Source: Kribbibacterium absianum (GTDB lineage Bacteria > Actinomycetota > Coriobacteriia > Coriobacteriales > Atopobiaceae). Taken from it: a DNA stretch of 64,000 nt. The stretch lies in the NCBI RefSeq assembly GCF_030067705.1, contig NZ_JASJEX010000003.1:62001-126000 (forward strand). The letters are read 5' to 3'. The position numbers and the translations under genes were made by a program. The notes under the pieces are model-generated. The model ran no database searches. It was not told the origin of the DNA and saw only the letters and a list, made by a program, of their open reading frames with translations. Positions 34,162-61,307 of this stretch are shown in pieces (positions within the stretch are counted from its first letter, which is position 1; each line of letters opens with the position of its first letter).

Positions 34162-34788
34162 ATGTCTAACATCGACGTCAAGAACGCGGAGGGCCAGACG
34201 GTCAAGACCGTCGAGCTCGACTCCCGCGTGTTCGGCATCGAGCCGAACATCAACGTGACGCACCAGGTGGTCGTGAACTACCTGTCGTCCCTGCGCGCCG
34301 GCACCCACTCCACCAAGGGCCGCTCGGACGTGTCCGGCGGCGGCAAGAAGCCGTGGCGCCAGAAGGGCACCGGCCGTGCCCGCCAGGGCTCCATCCGCGC
34401 TGCCCAGTGGAAGGGCGGCGGCGTCGTCTTCGGCCCCACCCCCCACAAGCACATCAAGCGCTCGAACAACAAAGAGGTCAAGCTCGCCATGCGCTCCGTG
34501 CTGTCCGGCAAGCTGGCCGACGGCGAGCTCTTCGTGGTGGACAACCTCGACTTCGAGGCGCCCAAGACCAAGCAGGCCAAGGCCATCCTCGAGGCGCTCG
34601 GCCTCGAGGGCAAGCGCGTGACCGTCGTCCTTCCCGAGGACGCCGTGAACGCCTACCTGTCGTTCCGCAACCTGCCGAACGTCCGCATCGTCGACACCTT
34701 CGGCGCGAACGCCCACAACCTCATCGACAACAGCGCCCTGCTGCTGACCGAGGAGACCGCGAAGTATCTTGAGGGGGTGCTCGCATAA
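34162..34788 (+). CDS. rplD: 50S ribosomal protein L4
   Basis: 208 residues. It contains the exit-tunnel extension ([30 protein letters not shown]) and the globular Rossmann-like domain. L4 is the autogenous repressor of the S10 operon in many bacteria. Preceded by GAAGGAG; its TAA directly abuts the rplW ATG, indicating translational coupling. Confidence 0.98.
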
Positions 34789-35085
34789 ATGAACTCCGTC
34801 TACAACGTGATCATCCGCCCGGTCGTCTCCGAGCGCTCGTTCGACCAGATGGGCCTCAACAAGTACACCTTCGAGGTGGCGCCCACGGCCAACAAGATCG
34901 AGATCGCCGACGCCGTCGAGAAGCTCTTCGACGTCCACGTCGTCAAGGTCAACACCCTCTGGGTCAAGCCCAAGACGAAGCGCGTCCGCTACGTCGCCGG
35001 TAAGACCAAGAAGTGGAAGAAGGCCATCGTCACCCTCGCCGAGGGCGACACCATCGAGATCTTCGGGTCTCAGGTGGCCGAGTAG
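34789..35085 (+). CDS. rplW: 50S ribosomal protein L23
   Basis: 98 residues, starting in the base after the rplD stop. It shows the L23 pattern IIRPVVSERSF, NKYTFEVAPTANKIEIADAV and VNTLWVKPKTKRVRYVAG. It docks trigger factor and SRP at the tunnel exit. Confidence 0.98.
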   Translation: MNSVYNVIIRPVVSERSFDQMGLNKYTFEVAPTANKIEIADAVEKLFDVHVVKVNTLWVKPKTKRVRYVAGKTKKWKKAIVTLAEGDTIEIFGSQVAE

Positions 35086-56281: not shown

Positions 56282-56354
56282 GTCCCCAGTAACGTCGCCG
56301 CAACCCGCAAGCCCTAGGGTGGATAGCCCTGTCCCTCCCATTCGAGGGGGTTCC

Positions 56355-57974
56355 ATGGCCCAACCTCAGGCCCGTGCGGCCGCTCGCGCCCCGGAGCTGT
56401 TTCCCGTCGACGACGGGTACACCGGCAACCTGCGCGACGAGTCGCGCACCACCGGCTTTGCTGTGACCATCTCGTTCCCGACCAGCGAGGACGATGTCCG
56501 CGCGGTGCTCGCACAGCTGCGCGAGCAGGGGTGCACGGCCGTGACCGTGCAAGGGGCGCGCACGGGCCTCGCCGCGGGCGCGGTGCCCTTTGGCGGCTCG
56601 GTGATGGACCTCTCGCGCATGAAGCGCGTGACGGGCCTTCGCCAGGAGGGGGAGCGGTTCTTTGTGACCGTGCAGCCGGGCGTCGTGCTGCAGGACCTGC
56701 GCAACGCGCTGCGGCAGAAGCGCTTCGCCACGACGGGTTGGAGCGACGAGTCGCTGGCCGCCCTTGCGGCCTTCCGGGAGGCCGGGCCCTGGTTCTTCCC
56801 GACGGACCCCACCGAGACCTCGGCCACGATCGGCGGCATGGTGGCCTGCAACGCCTCGGGCGCGCGCAGCTTCCGCTACGGCCCCGTGCGACCGCACGTG
56901 CAGGCGCTGCGCGTGGTGCTGGCCGACGGCGAGACTCTGGCGCTCAGCCGCGGAGACGTGGCGGCGGAGGGCCGGGTGCTCACGCTCGTCACCGAGCAGG
57001 GCACCACGCGCACGGTGCCGGTGCCCACCTACACCATGCCGCACGCCAAGAACGCGAGCGGCTATCACGCGGCGCCGGACATGGATGCCGTGGACCTGTT
57101 CGTGGGATCGGACGGCACGTTGGGCGTCGTGACCGAGGTGGAGCTTGAGCTGCTGCCGTCCCCGGCGGTGACGTGGGGCGTCAACTGCTTCTTCGGCACC
57201 GAGGCCGAGGCGCTGGCCTTTGTCGAGGACGTGCGGCCGTCGGTGCCCGAGGCCGTTGCGGTGGAGTACTTCGACGCGGACGCCCTCGACGTGCTCCGCG
57301 CCCAGCGCGCGACCGGCGGCGCGTTCGCCACGCTGCCGGTGATTCCGGAGGACTGGCGCTTCTGCGTGTACGTGGAGCTGGCGGGGCCCGGCGAGGAGGC
57401 CGTCGCCGACGCGCTCGGGCGCGTGGCCGACGCGATGGTCGCGGCCGGGTCCACGCCTGCCAGGACCTGGGTGGGCCGCACGGACGTGGATCGCGAGTGC
57501 CAGCGGCTCTTCCGCCATGCGGTGCCGGAGTCCGTGAACATGCTCGTCGACGAGCGCCGCCGCACGGATCGGGCCATCACCAAGCTGGGCAGCGACATGT
57601 CGGTGCCCAACGGGCGCCTCTTGGACGTCATGGGCCTGTACCGCCGCACGCTCGCCGAGGAGGGCCTGCAGTCGGCCGTCTGGGGCCATATCGGCGACAA
57701 CCACCTGCACGTCAACGTCCTGCCCCGCACCATCGAGGACTACCGGCGGGGCAAGGCGCTCTTCGAGCGGTGGGCCGAGGAGGTCTCGGCCATGGGCGGA
57801 GCGGTCTCGGCCGAGCATGGCGTGGGCAAGCTCAAGCGGGCGTTCCTGATCCCGATGTACGGCCAGGAGGGCGTGGCGTCGATGGCCGCCACCAAGCGGG
57901 CGCTGGACCCGGACGGCCTGCTCGGTCGCGGCAATCTGTTCGACGAGGCGCTGCTGGGAAGCGAGGAGGTCTGA
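56355..57974 (+). CDS. FAD-linked oxidoreductase, D-lactate dehydrogenase/GlcD type
   Basis: 539 residues from ATG 56355 (GAGGGGGTTCC upstream; a GGATAGCCC-preceded ATG at 56319 is less likely). It has an FAD-binding PCMH domain (FPTSEDDVRAVLAQLREQGC; VQGARTGLAAGAVP; TDPTETSATIGGMVACNASG; GSDGTLGVVTEVELELL) and a C-terminal FAD-oxidase domain (GHIGDNHLHVNVLP; SAEHGVGKLK). In Acetobacterium the homologous LctD works with EtfAB to oxidise lactate by electron confurcation. With etfB starting in the next base, that role is inferred here; the substrate (lactate, glycolate or another 2-hydroxyacid) is open. Confidence 0.85.
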   Translation: MAQPQARAAARAPELFPVDDGYTGNLRDESRTTGFAVTISFPTSEDDVRAVLAQLREQGCTAVTVQGARTGLAAGAVPFGGSVMDLSRMKRVTGLRQEGERFFVTVQPGVVLQDLRNALRQKRFATTGWSDESLAALAAFREAGPWFFPTDPTETSATIGGMVACNASGARSFRYGPVRPHVQALRVVLADGETLALSRGDVAAEGRVLTLVTEQGTTRTVPVPTYTMPHAKNASGYHAAPDMDAVDLFVGSDGTLGVVTEVELELLPSPAVTWGVNCFFGTEAEALAFVEDVRPSVPEAVAVEYFDADALDVLRAQRATGGAFATLPVIPEDWRFCVYVELAGPGEEAVADALGRVADAMVAAGSTPARTWVGRTDVDRECQRLFRHAVPESVNMLVDERRRTDRAITKLGSDMSVPNGRLLDVMGLYRRTLAEEGLQSAVWGHIGDNHLHVNVLPRTIEDYRRGKALFERWAEEVSAMGGAVSAEHGVGKLKRAFLIPMYGQEGVASMAATKRALDPDGLLGRGNLFDEALLGSEEV

Positions 57975-57975
57975 G

Positions 57976-58773
57976 GTGCGACTGGTCGTCTGCCTGAAGG
58001 CGGTGCCGGCCTCGACAGAAGTGGCGATGGACCCGGTGACCCATACGATCGTCCGCGACGGCGGCGACGCCGTCTGGAACCCCTACGACACCGCCGCGCT
58101 CGAGGTGGCGCTCCGGCTCAAGGACGAGGCGCGAGCGGCCGGCCAGGAGGGGTGGGTCGGCGTGGTCTCGATGGGCATCCCGGCCACGGCGTCTCTTCTG
58201 GAGGACGCGCTCTCGCGCGGCGCCGACGAGGCGCTGCTCCTCTCGGACCGGGCCTTTGCCGGCAGCGACACCATCGCCACGTGTTACGCGCTGACGCTTG
58301 GCATCGGGCGCCTCTGCGCCGAGCCGGACCTCATCCTTTGCGGCAAGATGGCCGTGGACGGCGACACCGCACAGATCGGCCCCATGCTGGCTGCCGCGCT
58401 TCGGCTGCCGGTGGTGACGGGCGCCACGACGGTGGAGCGCCACGGGGCGGCCGTGGACGTGGAGCAGGTCTTCGACGGCGCGCGCCGGCGCCTCTGTATG
58501 CACGGGCCCGGCGTTGTGACCGTGGACAAGGACGCCGCGACGCTGCGCATGCCGTCCATCGAGGGCGTGCTGGCGGCCCGTCGGACTTCGGTCCCCGTGG
58601 CGACGGCTGCCGACCTGGGCGCCGACCTGGACCGGTGCGGCCTCGCCGGTTCGCCCACCCAGGTGGTCTCGTGCTTCGTGCCGGAGCGCGCGAGCGATGC
58701 CGTCGCCATCGAGGGCACGCCCGCGGAGCAGGCCGCGACCCTTGCGTACCTGATGGGGGAGGTGCTCGCATGA
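57976..58773 (+). CDS. etfB: Electron transfer flavoprotein beta subunit
   Basis: 265 residues, GTG 57976, one base after the dehydrogenase stop. RLVVCLKAVPASTEVAMDP, NPYDTAALEVALRL, GADEALLLSDRAFAGSDT and GKMAVDGDTAQIGPMLAAAL are EtfB hallmarks. It would carry the bifurcating FAD or AMP site and pair with EtfA. Overlaps the ferredoxin start by 4 bases. Confidence 0.93.
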   Translation: MRLVVCLKAVPASTEVAMDPVTHTIVRDGGDAVWNPYDTAALEVALRLKDEARAAGQEGWVGVVSMGIPATASLLEDALSRGADEALLLSDRAFAGSDTIATCYALTLGIGRLCAEPDLILCGKMAVDGDTAQIGPMLAAALRLPVVTGATTVERHGAAVDVEQVFDGARRRLCMHGPGVVTVDKDAATLRMPSIEGVLAARRTSVPVATAADLGADLDRCGLAGSPTQVVSCFVPERASDAVAIEGTPAEQAATLAYLMGEVLA

Positions 58774-58967
58774 GCGGGCTCTACGTGGACGCCGACCGCT
58801 GCGTTGGCTGCGGGATATGCGTGCGCACCTGCGCCAACGACGGCATCGAGCTGTTCTCCTACACGAGCGGTGCCGGCCGTGCGCGCCGTCTGGCGCGCCA
58901 GACGGACGGCTGCATCTACTGCGGCCTCTGCAAGGACGCGTGCCCGGTGGGCGCCATCACCATCTAG
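58770..58967 (+). CDS. 2[4Fe-4S] ferredoxin, likely N-terminal domain of EtfA cut off by an amber codon
   Basis: 65 residues. Two cluster motifs: CVGCGICVRTC (followed by Ala instead of the usual Pro) and CIYCGLCKDACPVGA. It ends at TAG 58965-58967 directly after VGAITI. The reading frame continues open beyond the TAG into EtfA with no frameshift, and LctC-type EtfA proteins carry just such an N-terminal ferredoxin domain. So this is either a free-standing ferredoxin after gene fission or the head of a fused gene broken by one substitution (for example GAG to TAG). Confidence 0.8.
   Translation: MSGLYVDADRCVGCGICVRTCANDGIELFSYTSGAGRARRLARQTDGCIYCGLCKDACPVGAITI
58965..58967 (+). other. In-frame amber codon between ferredoxin and EtfA
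   Basis: TAG, followed by C, in the same frame as both flanking coding segments. The 14 codons between it and the first possible start (GTG 59010) encode RDDRAADEGEGFLV, which includes EtfA's expected first beta-strand. Confidence 0.85.
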
Positions 58968-59009
58968 CGCGACGACCGGGCCGCCGATGAGGGCGAGGGC
59001 TTTCTCGTC

Positions 59010-59984
59010 GTGTGCGAGACAGACGCCGCGGGCGACCTTGTCGATGTGGGCCGCGAGCTGCTGTGGAAGGCCAACGAGCTGGCCGCGCAGGTGGACGCCG
59101 GCGTGCAGGCGCTCGTGCTGGGCTGCGGCGAGCGGGACCCGCAGGGCGCGGCCGACCAGGCCTATGCCGCCGGCGCGGACGAGGTGACCGTGGGCTGGAA
59201 CGCAGGGGCCAACGCCCTCGATTCCGAGCTGGCCGCGGCGCAGACCGTCGCGGTGGCCCGAGAGCTGCGACCGGCCGTGGTGCTCTTCGGCGCCACGGAC
59301 TTTGGCCGCGAGCTGGCGCCGCAGGTGGCCGAGCAGCTCCAGACGGGCCTCACGGCGGACTGCACGCGCTTGGAGATGGACCCGGAGAGCGGCCTTCTGC
59401 TCCAAACGCGCCCCGCCTTTGGCGGCAACCTGATGGCCACCATCGCCTGCCCTGCGCGGCGCCCGCAGATGGCCACCGTGCGCCCGGGCATCTTCCCGGT
59501 GCCCGAGATGGCGATTGAGGTGCCGTCGGTGCCCTGCTCGGAGGTGTGGCGCCCCGAGACCTGCGGCCTCGTGGAGGTGCTGAGCTGCGAGGACGCGTCG
59601 AGCGGCGAGACCGTCGCCGACGCCGAGGTGCTGGTTGTGGCGGGCCGCGGCGTCCGGGACAAGACGGGCCTTGCGCTGTGCGAGCGGCTGGCGGGCCTGC
59701 TCGGCGGCAAGCTGGGTTGCACGCGCCCTTTGGTGGAGCAGGGCTGGCTCGACCGTTCGCAGCAGGTGGGGCAGACGGGTTGCTCGGTGGCCCCGAGGTT
59801 GTTGGTGTCGGTGGGCGTGTCCGGCGCCGTGCAGCACCTGGCCGGCATGGGCGGCGCCGAGTGCGTGGTGGCCGTCAACGAGGATGCCGACGCGCCGATC
59901 TTCTCGGCGGCGCAGTACCGTGTGGTGGGGGACTGCCGCGAGGTGCTGCCGGAGCTGATCGCCCGGCTCGAGGGGGTTCGGTGA
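59010..59984 (+). CDS. etfA: Electron transfer flavoprotein alpha subunit (5' boundary uncertain)
   Basis: 324 residues if started at GTG 59010; open frame continues back to the TAG at 58965. GAGGGCGAGGG lies 10-20 bases upstream and could serve as a ribosome-binding site. However, starting there removes the first strand (GFLVV) of the Rossmann-like domain, so the natural product probably begins earlier or as a ferredoxin fusion. The C-terminal FAD domain is intact: VGQTGCSVAPRLLVSVGVSG, AVQHLAGM and AVNEDADAPIFSAAQYRVVG. Last gene of the dehydrogenase-etf cluster; no clear terminator follows. Confidence 0.88.
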   Translation: MCETDAAGDLVDVGRELLWKANELAAQVDAGVQALVLGCGERDPQGAADQAYAAGADEVTVGWNAGANALDSELAAAQTVAVARELRPAVVLFGATDFGRELAPQVAEQLQTGLTADCTRLEMDPESGLLLQTRPAFGGNLMATIACPARRPQMATVRPGIFPVPEMAIEVPSVPCSEVWRPETCGLVEVLSCEDASSGETVADAEVLVVAGRGVRDKTGLALCERLAGLLGGKLGCTRPLVEQGWLDRSQQVGQTGCSVAPRLLVSVGVSGAVQHLAGMGGAECVVAVNEDADAPIFSAAQYRVVGDCREVLPELIARLEGVR

Positions 59985-60466: not shown

Positions 60467-60510
60467 AGGTCCCGACGATCCCGCAGGGCGCATCTCCGCA
60501 GGAAGCCTAA

Positions 60511-60795
60511 ACCTCCTCAGGTGCCACGCACCCCAGGAGGTTTCCGCCTCAGGTGCCACGCACTACGGGAGGTTTGGGCGGTTCCCCGCAACGGGCGCCC
60601 CGTCTTTGTGGGGAACCGTTTCCCCGCAAAGGGTTTATCTCGGGATATACACAGATGGGCGGTCTGCGGGCGCCGTTTCCCCGCAAAGGGCGGGTCGGTT
60701 TTGCGCGGAACCGTTTCCCCGCAACCAGTCCTCCTGTAGTGCCACGCACCCCAGGAGGTTTCCGCCCCAGGTGCCACGCACCCCAGGAGGTTTTT
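60511..60795 (+). repeat. Cluster of type II and type III palindromic repeats
   Basis: Type II units at 60511-60543, 60548-60574, 60731-60762 and 60765-60795 (core AGGTGCCACGCACCCCAGG plus AGGTTT; AAACCTCC and GGAGGTTT arms, inner GGTGC/GCACC). Between them are type III units built on CCGTTTCCCCGCAAAGGG: 60616-60633, 60673-60690, 60711-60725 and a shorter one at 60582-60594, each facing an inverted GGGGAA or GCGGG arm. The whole 60,467-60,917 gap contains repeats and no gene. Confidence 0.85.
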
Positions 60796-60855
60796 GCCGC
60801 GAGCTGTGGAACAGGAACGACCCCGGCTGCCGGTTGGCGGTCGGGGCCGTCGCGC

Positions 60856-60917
60856 GTGGACAAATGGCTCTCTCCGAAGCGTCCAGGCGTGGACAAATGG
60901 CTCTCTCGCAAGCGTCC
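60856..60917 (-). repeat. Type I intergenic repeat, two direct units
   Basis: Two units (60856-60884 and 60889-60917) lie on the minus strand, immediately behind the stop codon of the minus-strand gene. Read on that strand they have the same orientation relative to their upstream gene as all other type I loci. Confidence 0.9.
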
Positions 60918-61307
60918 TTACGCGCGGGAGGACCGGTGCTTTGCCCGCATCGTCGCGGCCACGTGGCGCAGCGCCGCGAGCGGTCGGTACCGCAGCATGC
61001 GCGGCCCCGCGTAGCGCATCACGGCGCGCATGCGCTCCTGCATGGCGCGGCGGTAGCAGGGGCGCGGGCACACGGAGCAGAAGGTCTTCTCGGCCATGCG
61101 CGGGCAGCGACGGATGCGCGCCTCGGCGTATTCGACCAGCTCGCGGCACTCGTCGCAGAGGTGCGGGTCGTGTGGGCACGGCTTTCCCGGCGTGCCGTGG
61201 TTCCCGTGGCAGTACACGCTCGTCATGAGCGACACCATCTCCAGCTCCTGCGCGCGCTTGGCCGCCAGGCCCTGGTCCGCCCCGCGGTTCTCGGTCGAAG
61301 CCGCCAC
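60918..61307 (-). CDS. YgbA_NO (nitrous oxide-stimulated promoter) family protein
   Basis: 129 residues from GTG 61307, which touches the TAA of the upstream ABC gene (TAAGTG), so translation is coupled. Cys-rich: MVSLMTSVYCHGNHG, then CPHDPHLCDEC and CRRMAE-like segments ending KTFCSVCPRPCYR, then RAMQERMRAVMRYAGPRM. The family is expressed under nitric/nitrous oxide stress in other bacteria and is thought to bind metal through these Cys. Function otherwise unknown. Confidence 0.8.
   Translation of the reverse strand: MAASTENRGADQGLAAKRAQELEMVSLMTSVYCHGNHGTPGKPCPHDPHLCDECRELVEYAEARIRRCPRMAEKTFCSVCPRPCYRRAMQERMRAVMRYAGPRMLRYRPLAALRHVAATMRAKHRSSRA

Follow-up and report, generated by a model that had tools for sequence, protein, structure and literature searches.

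Does the in-frame TAG that lies between a ferredoxin domain and EtfA in this strain mark the boundary of two working genes, a stop that some ribosomes pass, a base that was misread, or a lesion in what was once a single gene? The codon sits in a window of 64,000 nucleotides, by which we mean the whole stretch of DNA that was analysed, on contig 3 of a 2.18 Mb genome. The original prediction offered nonsense mutation, gene fission with re-initiation, read-through and sequencing error as four unranked explanations of a split ferredoxin-EtfA fusion. The parts of the locus on which the answer depends are as follows.

56319..57974, + strand: intact gene for an Ldh/LctD-like FAD-linked oxidase (D-lactate dehydrogenase subunit; Pfam FAD_binding_4 and FAD-oxidase_C)
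57976..58773, + strand: intact EtfB gene (Pfam ETF, 2.4e-30), with a homologue in 67 of the 67 genomes compared and no in-frame stops
58770..58967, + strand: 2[4Fe-4S] ferredoxin domain of 65 aa with two complete CxxCxxCxxxC motifs, N-terminal part of the Fd-EtfA gene
58965..58967, + strand: in-frame TAG, seen in the translation; each of 40 further distinct homologues has a sense codon here, which is GAG in 28 of them
58968..59984, + strand: linker and EtfA body, an open frame of 338 codons with full ETF and FAD-binding domains, ending in TGA
58995..58999, + strand: GAGGG, a weak Shine-Dalgarno-like sequence 5' of GTG 59010 (duplex -7.6 kcal/mol)
59010..59012, + strand: GTG, the first possible in-frame start past the TAG, inside the modelled EtfA beta-strand 1

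One reading frame and a genuine stop

Translated from 58770, the frame opens with MSGLYVDADRCVGCGICVRTC, reaches the TAG after CIYCGLCKDACPVGAITI, resumes with RDDRAADEGEGFLVVCETD and continues as an open EtfA frame to the TGA at 59982-59984. Pfam places Fer4 families 5' of the TAG, and ETF (6.6e-37) and ETF_alpha (3.3e-29) 3' of it, so that translation and domain search agree with the prediction that ferredoxin and EtfA share a frame with only this codon between them. The base that follows the stop is C (TAG CGC). The predicted 14 open codons before any possible EtfA start are also as described: the first in-frame ATG, GTG or TTG is GTG 59010, and there is no ATG within 60 codons.

The genes of the operon adjoin directly in the order Ldh-EtfB-Fd-EtfA, an arrangement common to relatives. 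The real start of the Ldh gene may lie somewhat 3' of the called GTG, and its product finds its best match among solved structures in LctD of A. woodii (7qh2_C, 1.1e-33). The EtfB TGA and the ferredoxin ATG overlap as ATGA, and the ferredoxin start has a strong Shine-Dalgarno sequence (-14.5 kcal/mol). Elsewhere the genome encodes a lactate permease homologue; the only EtfA found in it is the copy at 58968..59984. Short repeated units (CAGGTGCCACGCAC..GGAGGTTT, GTTTCCCCGCAAAGGG and GTGGACAAATGGCTCTCTC) were noticed by eye in the intergenic stretch at 60500-60930, which separates the operon from the genes that follow.

A codon-signature scan of 464 kb of the genome, including a 400-kb sample drawn in stretches, returned 16 junctions at which coding sequence, a stop and further coding sequence stand in one frame. 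The TAG at 58965 is the only one of them with coding signal straight through and no start within 10 codons; the others have a start within 9 codons, save one whose downstream side at first looks non-coding. The junction is not a chance gene boundary. The remaining in-frame pairs in the window (10273, 34786, 42314, 46799, 47213 and others) were considered as further splits; those inspected, L4/L23 and S13/S11 among them, proved to be tandem genes of the ordinary kind, in which the second gene starts 0-9 codons past the stop. At 34786-34791, where L4 and L23 share one frame, only a TAA precedes the next ATG, an ordinary tandem that could nevertheless be a source of false calls of split fusions. 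A TAG at position 251218 of contig C3 was likewise set aside as an ordinary boundary, its neighbours appearing by eye to be amylomaltase-like and glycogen-phosphorylase-like.

TAG is a genuine stop in this genome. The RF1 gene is present, no tRNA with a CTA anticodon occurs among the 47 tRNAs of an Rfam tRNA search, and the 63 called genes of the window end in TAG (28), TAA (22) or TGA (13). Codon reassignment or a dedicated suppressor tRNA is not supported: no sign was seen of the suppressor tRNA or altered release factor, or of the departure of TAG from ordinary stop use, that mark recoding, and the stop is conserved in 0 of 40 distinct homologues.

The fused gene in related systems

The same three-gene module is known from A. 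woodii Ldh-EtfAB (LctBCD, PDB 7qh2), in which an FAD-linked lactate dehydrogenase is joined by EtfB and by an EtfA with an N-terminal ferredoxin domain. As in that system, the gene for an FAD-linked lactate dehydrogenase here stands beside etfB and etfA; an N-terminal ferredoxin domain is encoded as well, but the TAG separates it from the EtfA that bears it covalently in the homologues read. The Fd-EtfA of the window matches LctC (7qh2), and its best PDB match when the stop is read through is CarE of the caffeyl-CoA reductase CarCDE (PDB 6fah, 2.5e-72, with an alignment that spans residues 6 to 402). The prediction had taken an N-terminal 2[4Fe-4S] domain to be natural to LctC-type EtfA. The domain itself is there, but in A. 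woodii LctC it holds one [4Fe-4S] cluster (PMC9232219), whereas that of the window has two, in addition to the cut by the TAG, and so belongs with the two-cluster domain of CarE. CarCDE differs in turn in its partner enzyme, an acyl-CoA reductase rather than an Ldh-type oxidase. Closer at hand are the Fd-EtfAs of Collinsella and other Coriobacteriales (e.g. L031, Collinsella bouchesdurhonensis), which are the same gene in the same Ldh-EtfB-Fd-EtfA order and 47-57% identical over the fused length, but which keep one frame throughout, the codon at the junction being a sense codon.

We aligned 41 distinct Fd-EtfA genes, the window gene and 40 from comparison genomes that all lie outside the source genus. 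At the column of the TAG the 40 others have 28 GAG, 1 GAA, 1 CAG (Gln), 6 Val, 2 Ala, 1 Thr and 1 His; GAG, the commonest of these codons, differs from TAG by one base. The expectation that relatives would carry a sense codon such as GAG is thus borne out, and the contrary case, in which all relatives share the TAG, is excluded by the same 40 codons. Because every aligned homologue has a sense codon here, the fused gene is, as judged from the alignment, the ancestral state. Wider searches give a similar picture. In an order-wide search of 397 genomes, about 64 others have matches that span the ferredoxin as well as EtfA, none of them with a stop reported at the junction; the only stops flagged in that search besides the one in the window, a terminal TAA in G043 and a TGA at codon 3 in G193, lie away from the junction. 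Across 396 sampled genomes of the phylum, the fused-type matches outside the source genome likewise had no stop flagged. A contig search for relatives returned one fused homologue from Collinsella and four Arthrobacter EtfAs, a search of viral contigs for homologues returned nothing, and the literature on Etf operons in Olsenella held nothing specific to this locus. The Collinsella homologue and the matches across the order put the source genome in the Coriobacteriales, with Atopobiaceae as its probable family.

The EtfA part shows no accelerated decay, as expected for a young lesion. Its GC3 is 0.92, 3 of the 99 columns that are invariant in other homologues have changed, and its EtfA/EtfB distance ratio is 1.20 against 1.06 +/- 0.08 in 20 other representatives; none of the eight cluster cysteines has been lost, and the core of EtfA is intact. 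The lesion would therefore be recent, or a sequencing error, or tolerated with both parts still working. Past the TAG, the Y-x-D-I-W motif that is usual in the linker has been lost, and a GAGGGCGAGGGC stretch that could be a ribosome-binding site has been gained.

Explanations for the stop

We favour, with a probability of about 0.6, a recent single-base nonsense (null) allele that breaks the fused Fd-EtfA of the Ldh-EtfAB operon, one of the electron-bifurcating, lactate-oxidising kind, a reading in which the homologues, coming from outside the genus, establish neither the ancestral codon nor fixation of the allele in the species. The simplest route would be a single-base change in the linker that joins EtfA to the ferredoxin domain, turning GAG (Glu) into TAG. 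Ribosomes would then stop at the TAG and release a 65-residue ferredoxin, and little or no EtfA would be made, since no start is close by except a GTG that has a weak ribosome-binding site and falls within beta-strand 1. Since the genome's only EtfA hit is this one, the complex would be lost or, at best, would lack its tethered ferredoxin. The TAG looks like an ordinary recent loss-of-function mutation or a one-base sequencing error rather than a new coding mechanism, and we propose no new kind of system. With regard to the four explanations originally listed, nonsense mutation and sequencing error are favoured because relatives have a sense codon at the junction, re-initiation is weakly possible, and read-through by a suppressor tRNA is unsupported given RF1 and the lack of a CTA anticodon among the tRNAs found.

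Alternatively, ferredoxin and EtfA may have become separate working subunits, with EtfA made by re-initiation at GTG 59010 and the ferredoxin untethered. We regard such a fission as unlikely, although several features are in keeping with it. Both products retain their motifs, and intact cysteines and an intact EtfA core are what a functional split also predicts; the GAGGGCGAGGGC gained by the linker is a possible ribosome-binding site; and some 10 bases 5' of the GTG there is a GAGG-type Shine-Dalgarno match. This GAGGG, however, is weaker (-7.6 kcal/mol) than the sites of most genes in the window (median -9.0), and 7% of internal GTG or ATG codons have a Shine-Dalgarno sequence as good or better. 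The 14-codon gap without an ATG is unlike the window's other in-frame gene pairs, and neither the order search nor the phylum sample contains another genome split at this junction.

The position of the GTG also tells against fission. Beta-strand 1 is modelled at residues 77-84 and GTG 59010 is residue 81, in a structure model built from a 5-row alignment whose mean pLDDT is low (60.6) and which is usable only over EtfA residues of roughly 80-200, a range that takes in most of the strand (block means around the strand of about 63-88). A start at this codon would, according to the model, strip the first half of the strand, so that the prediction went too far in having all of it deleted. A normal EtfA from GTG 59010 is thus unlikely, and low-level re-initiation there is weakly possible.

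Whether an untethered ferredoxin would be of use can be considered from known complexes. Some EtfAs have no ferredoxin domain (5ol2 and 4kpu, among the structure matches), and CarCDE still bifurcates after removal of its ferredoxin domain (PMC9232219). In A. woodii Ldh-EtfAB, the closer functional analogue, loss of the domain abolishes both bifurcation and confurcation and does not destabilise the complex (PMC9232219).

A sequencing or assembly error, with a sense codon in the true sequence, is similarly improbable. Such an error would need only one base, from GAG to TAG, and would account for a gene that is otherwise perfectly coding-like, but the assembly (7 contigs, 99.78% complete, 0.3% contamination) argues against it, as does the codon-signature scan, in which no other through-coding stop was seen in 464 kb.

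A more elaborate proposal, that the lineage has split its tethered ferredoxin into a free subunit through the stop and re-initiation (or low-level read-through), so that a mix of tethered, free and absent ferredoxin tunes bifurcation against simple lactate oxidation, strikes us as decidedly doubtful. Read-through proper, with some ribosomes decoding UAG-C as an amino acid to give a regulated amount of the fused protein, is very unlikely: the frame is intact past the stop and E. coli offers examples of stop codon read-through (PMC11126739), but in that organism UAG allows less of it than UGA (PMC11126739), RF1 is present with no suppressor tRNA found among 47 tRNAs, and the stop is conserved in no relative among the 40 aligned homologues or in the order and phylum searches.

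Consequences and breaks in other Coriobacteriales operons

If the lesion is real, the strain is probably without a working Ldh-EtfAB and lactate would be unusable by that route; predictions made from the presence of the operon in the genome would therefore be wrong for this strain. A natural split, if that were the true state, would offer a test of whether tethering of the ferredoxin is needed for bifurcation.

Breaks also occur in this operon in other Coriobacteriales. In G193, which belongs to the same genus as many of the Collinsella-like relatives, the Fd-EtfA gene (L142, G193:C7, 1754-2953) has a TGA at codon 3 where its sisters have Gly; the rest is intact and 95% identical to the sisters, and against one sister 58 codon differences are synonymous and 14 non-synonymous. 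In G198 a change of frame falls between residues 103 and 133 of the Fd-EtfA gene (L143, G198:C11, on the minus strand at about 2120-2240), accompanied by some 90 bases that look unrelated. In G187 the frame changes in the LctD-like Ldh gene (L147, G187:C32, on the minus strand near 1424-1430), close to the position of residue 121 in the window's protein. A TAA in the Ldh match of G181 proved to be the terminal stop. These three breaks could be assembly errors. As controls, EtfB and RF1 have in-frame stops in 0 of 67 and 0 of 63 genomes, respectively. Breaks of Fd-EtfA in 3 of 67 genomes (the window, G193 and G198) do not differ significantly from EtfB alone (Fisher p 0.24) and give p 0.04 against EtfB and RF1 together, in a comparison of genes that differ in essentiality; with counts so small, the other breaks are a parallel to the lesion in the window, not proof of it. 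That a break in EtfA or Ldh is found in 4 of 67 Coriobacteriales operons suggests occasional loss of the operon.
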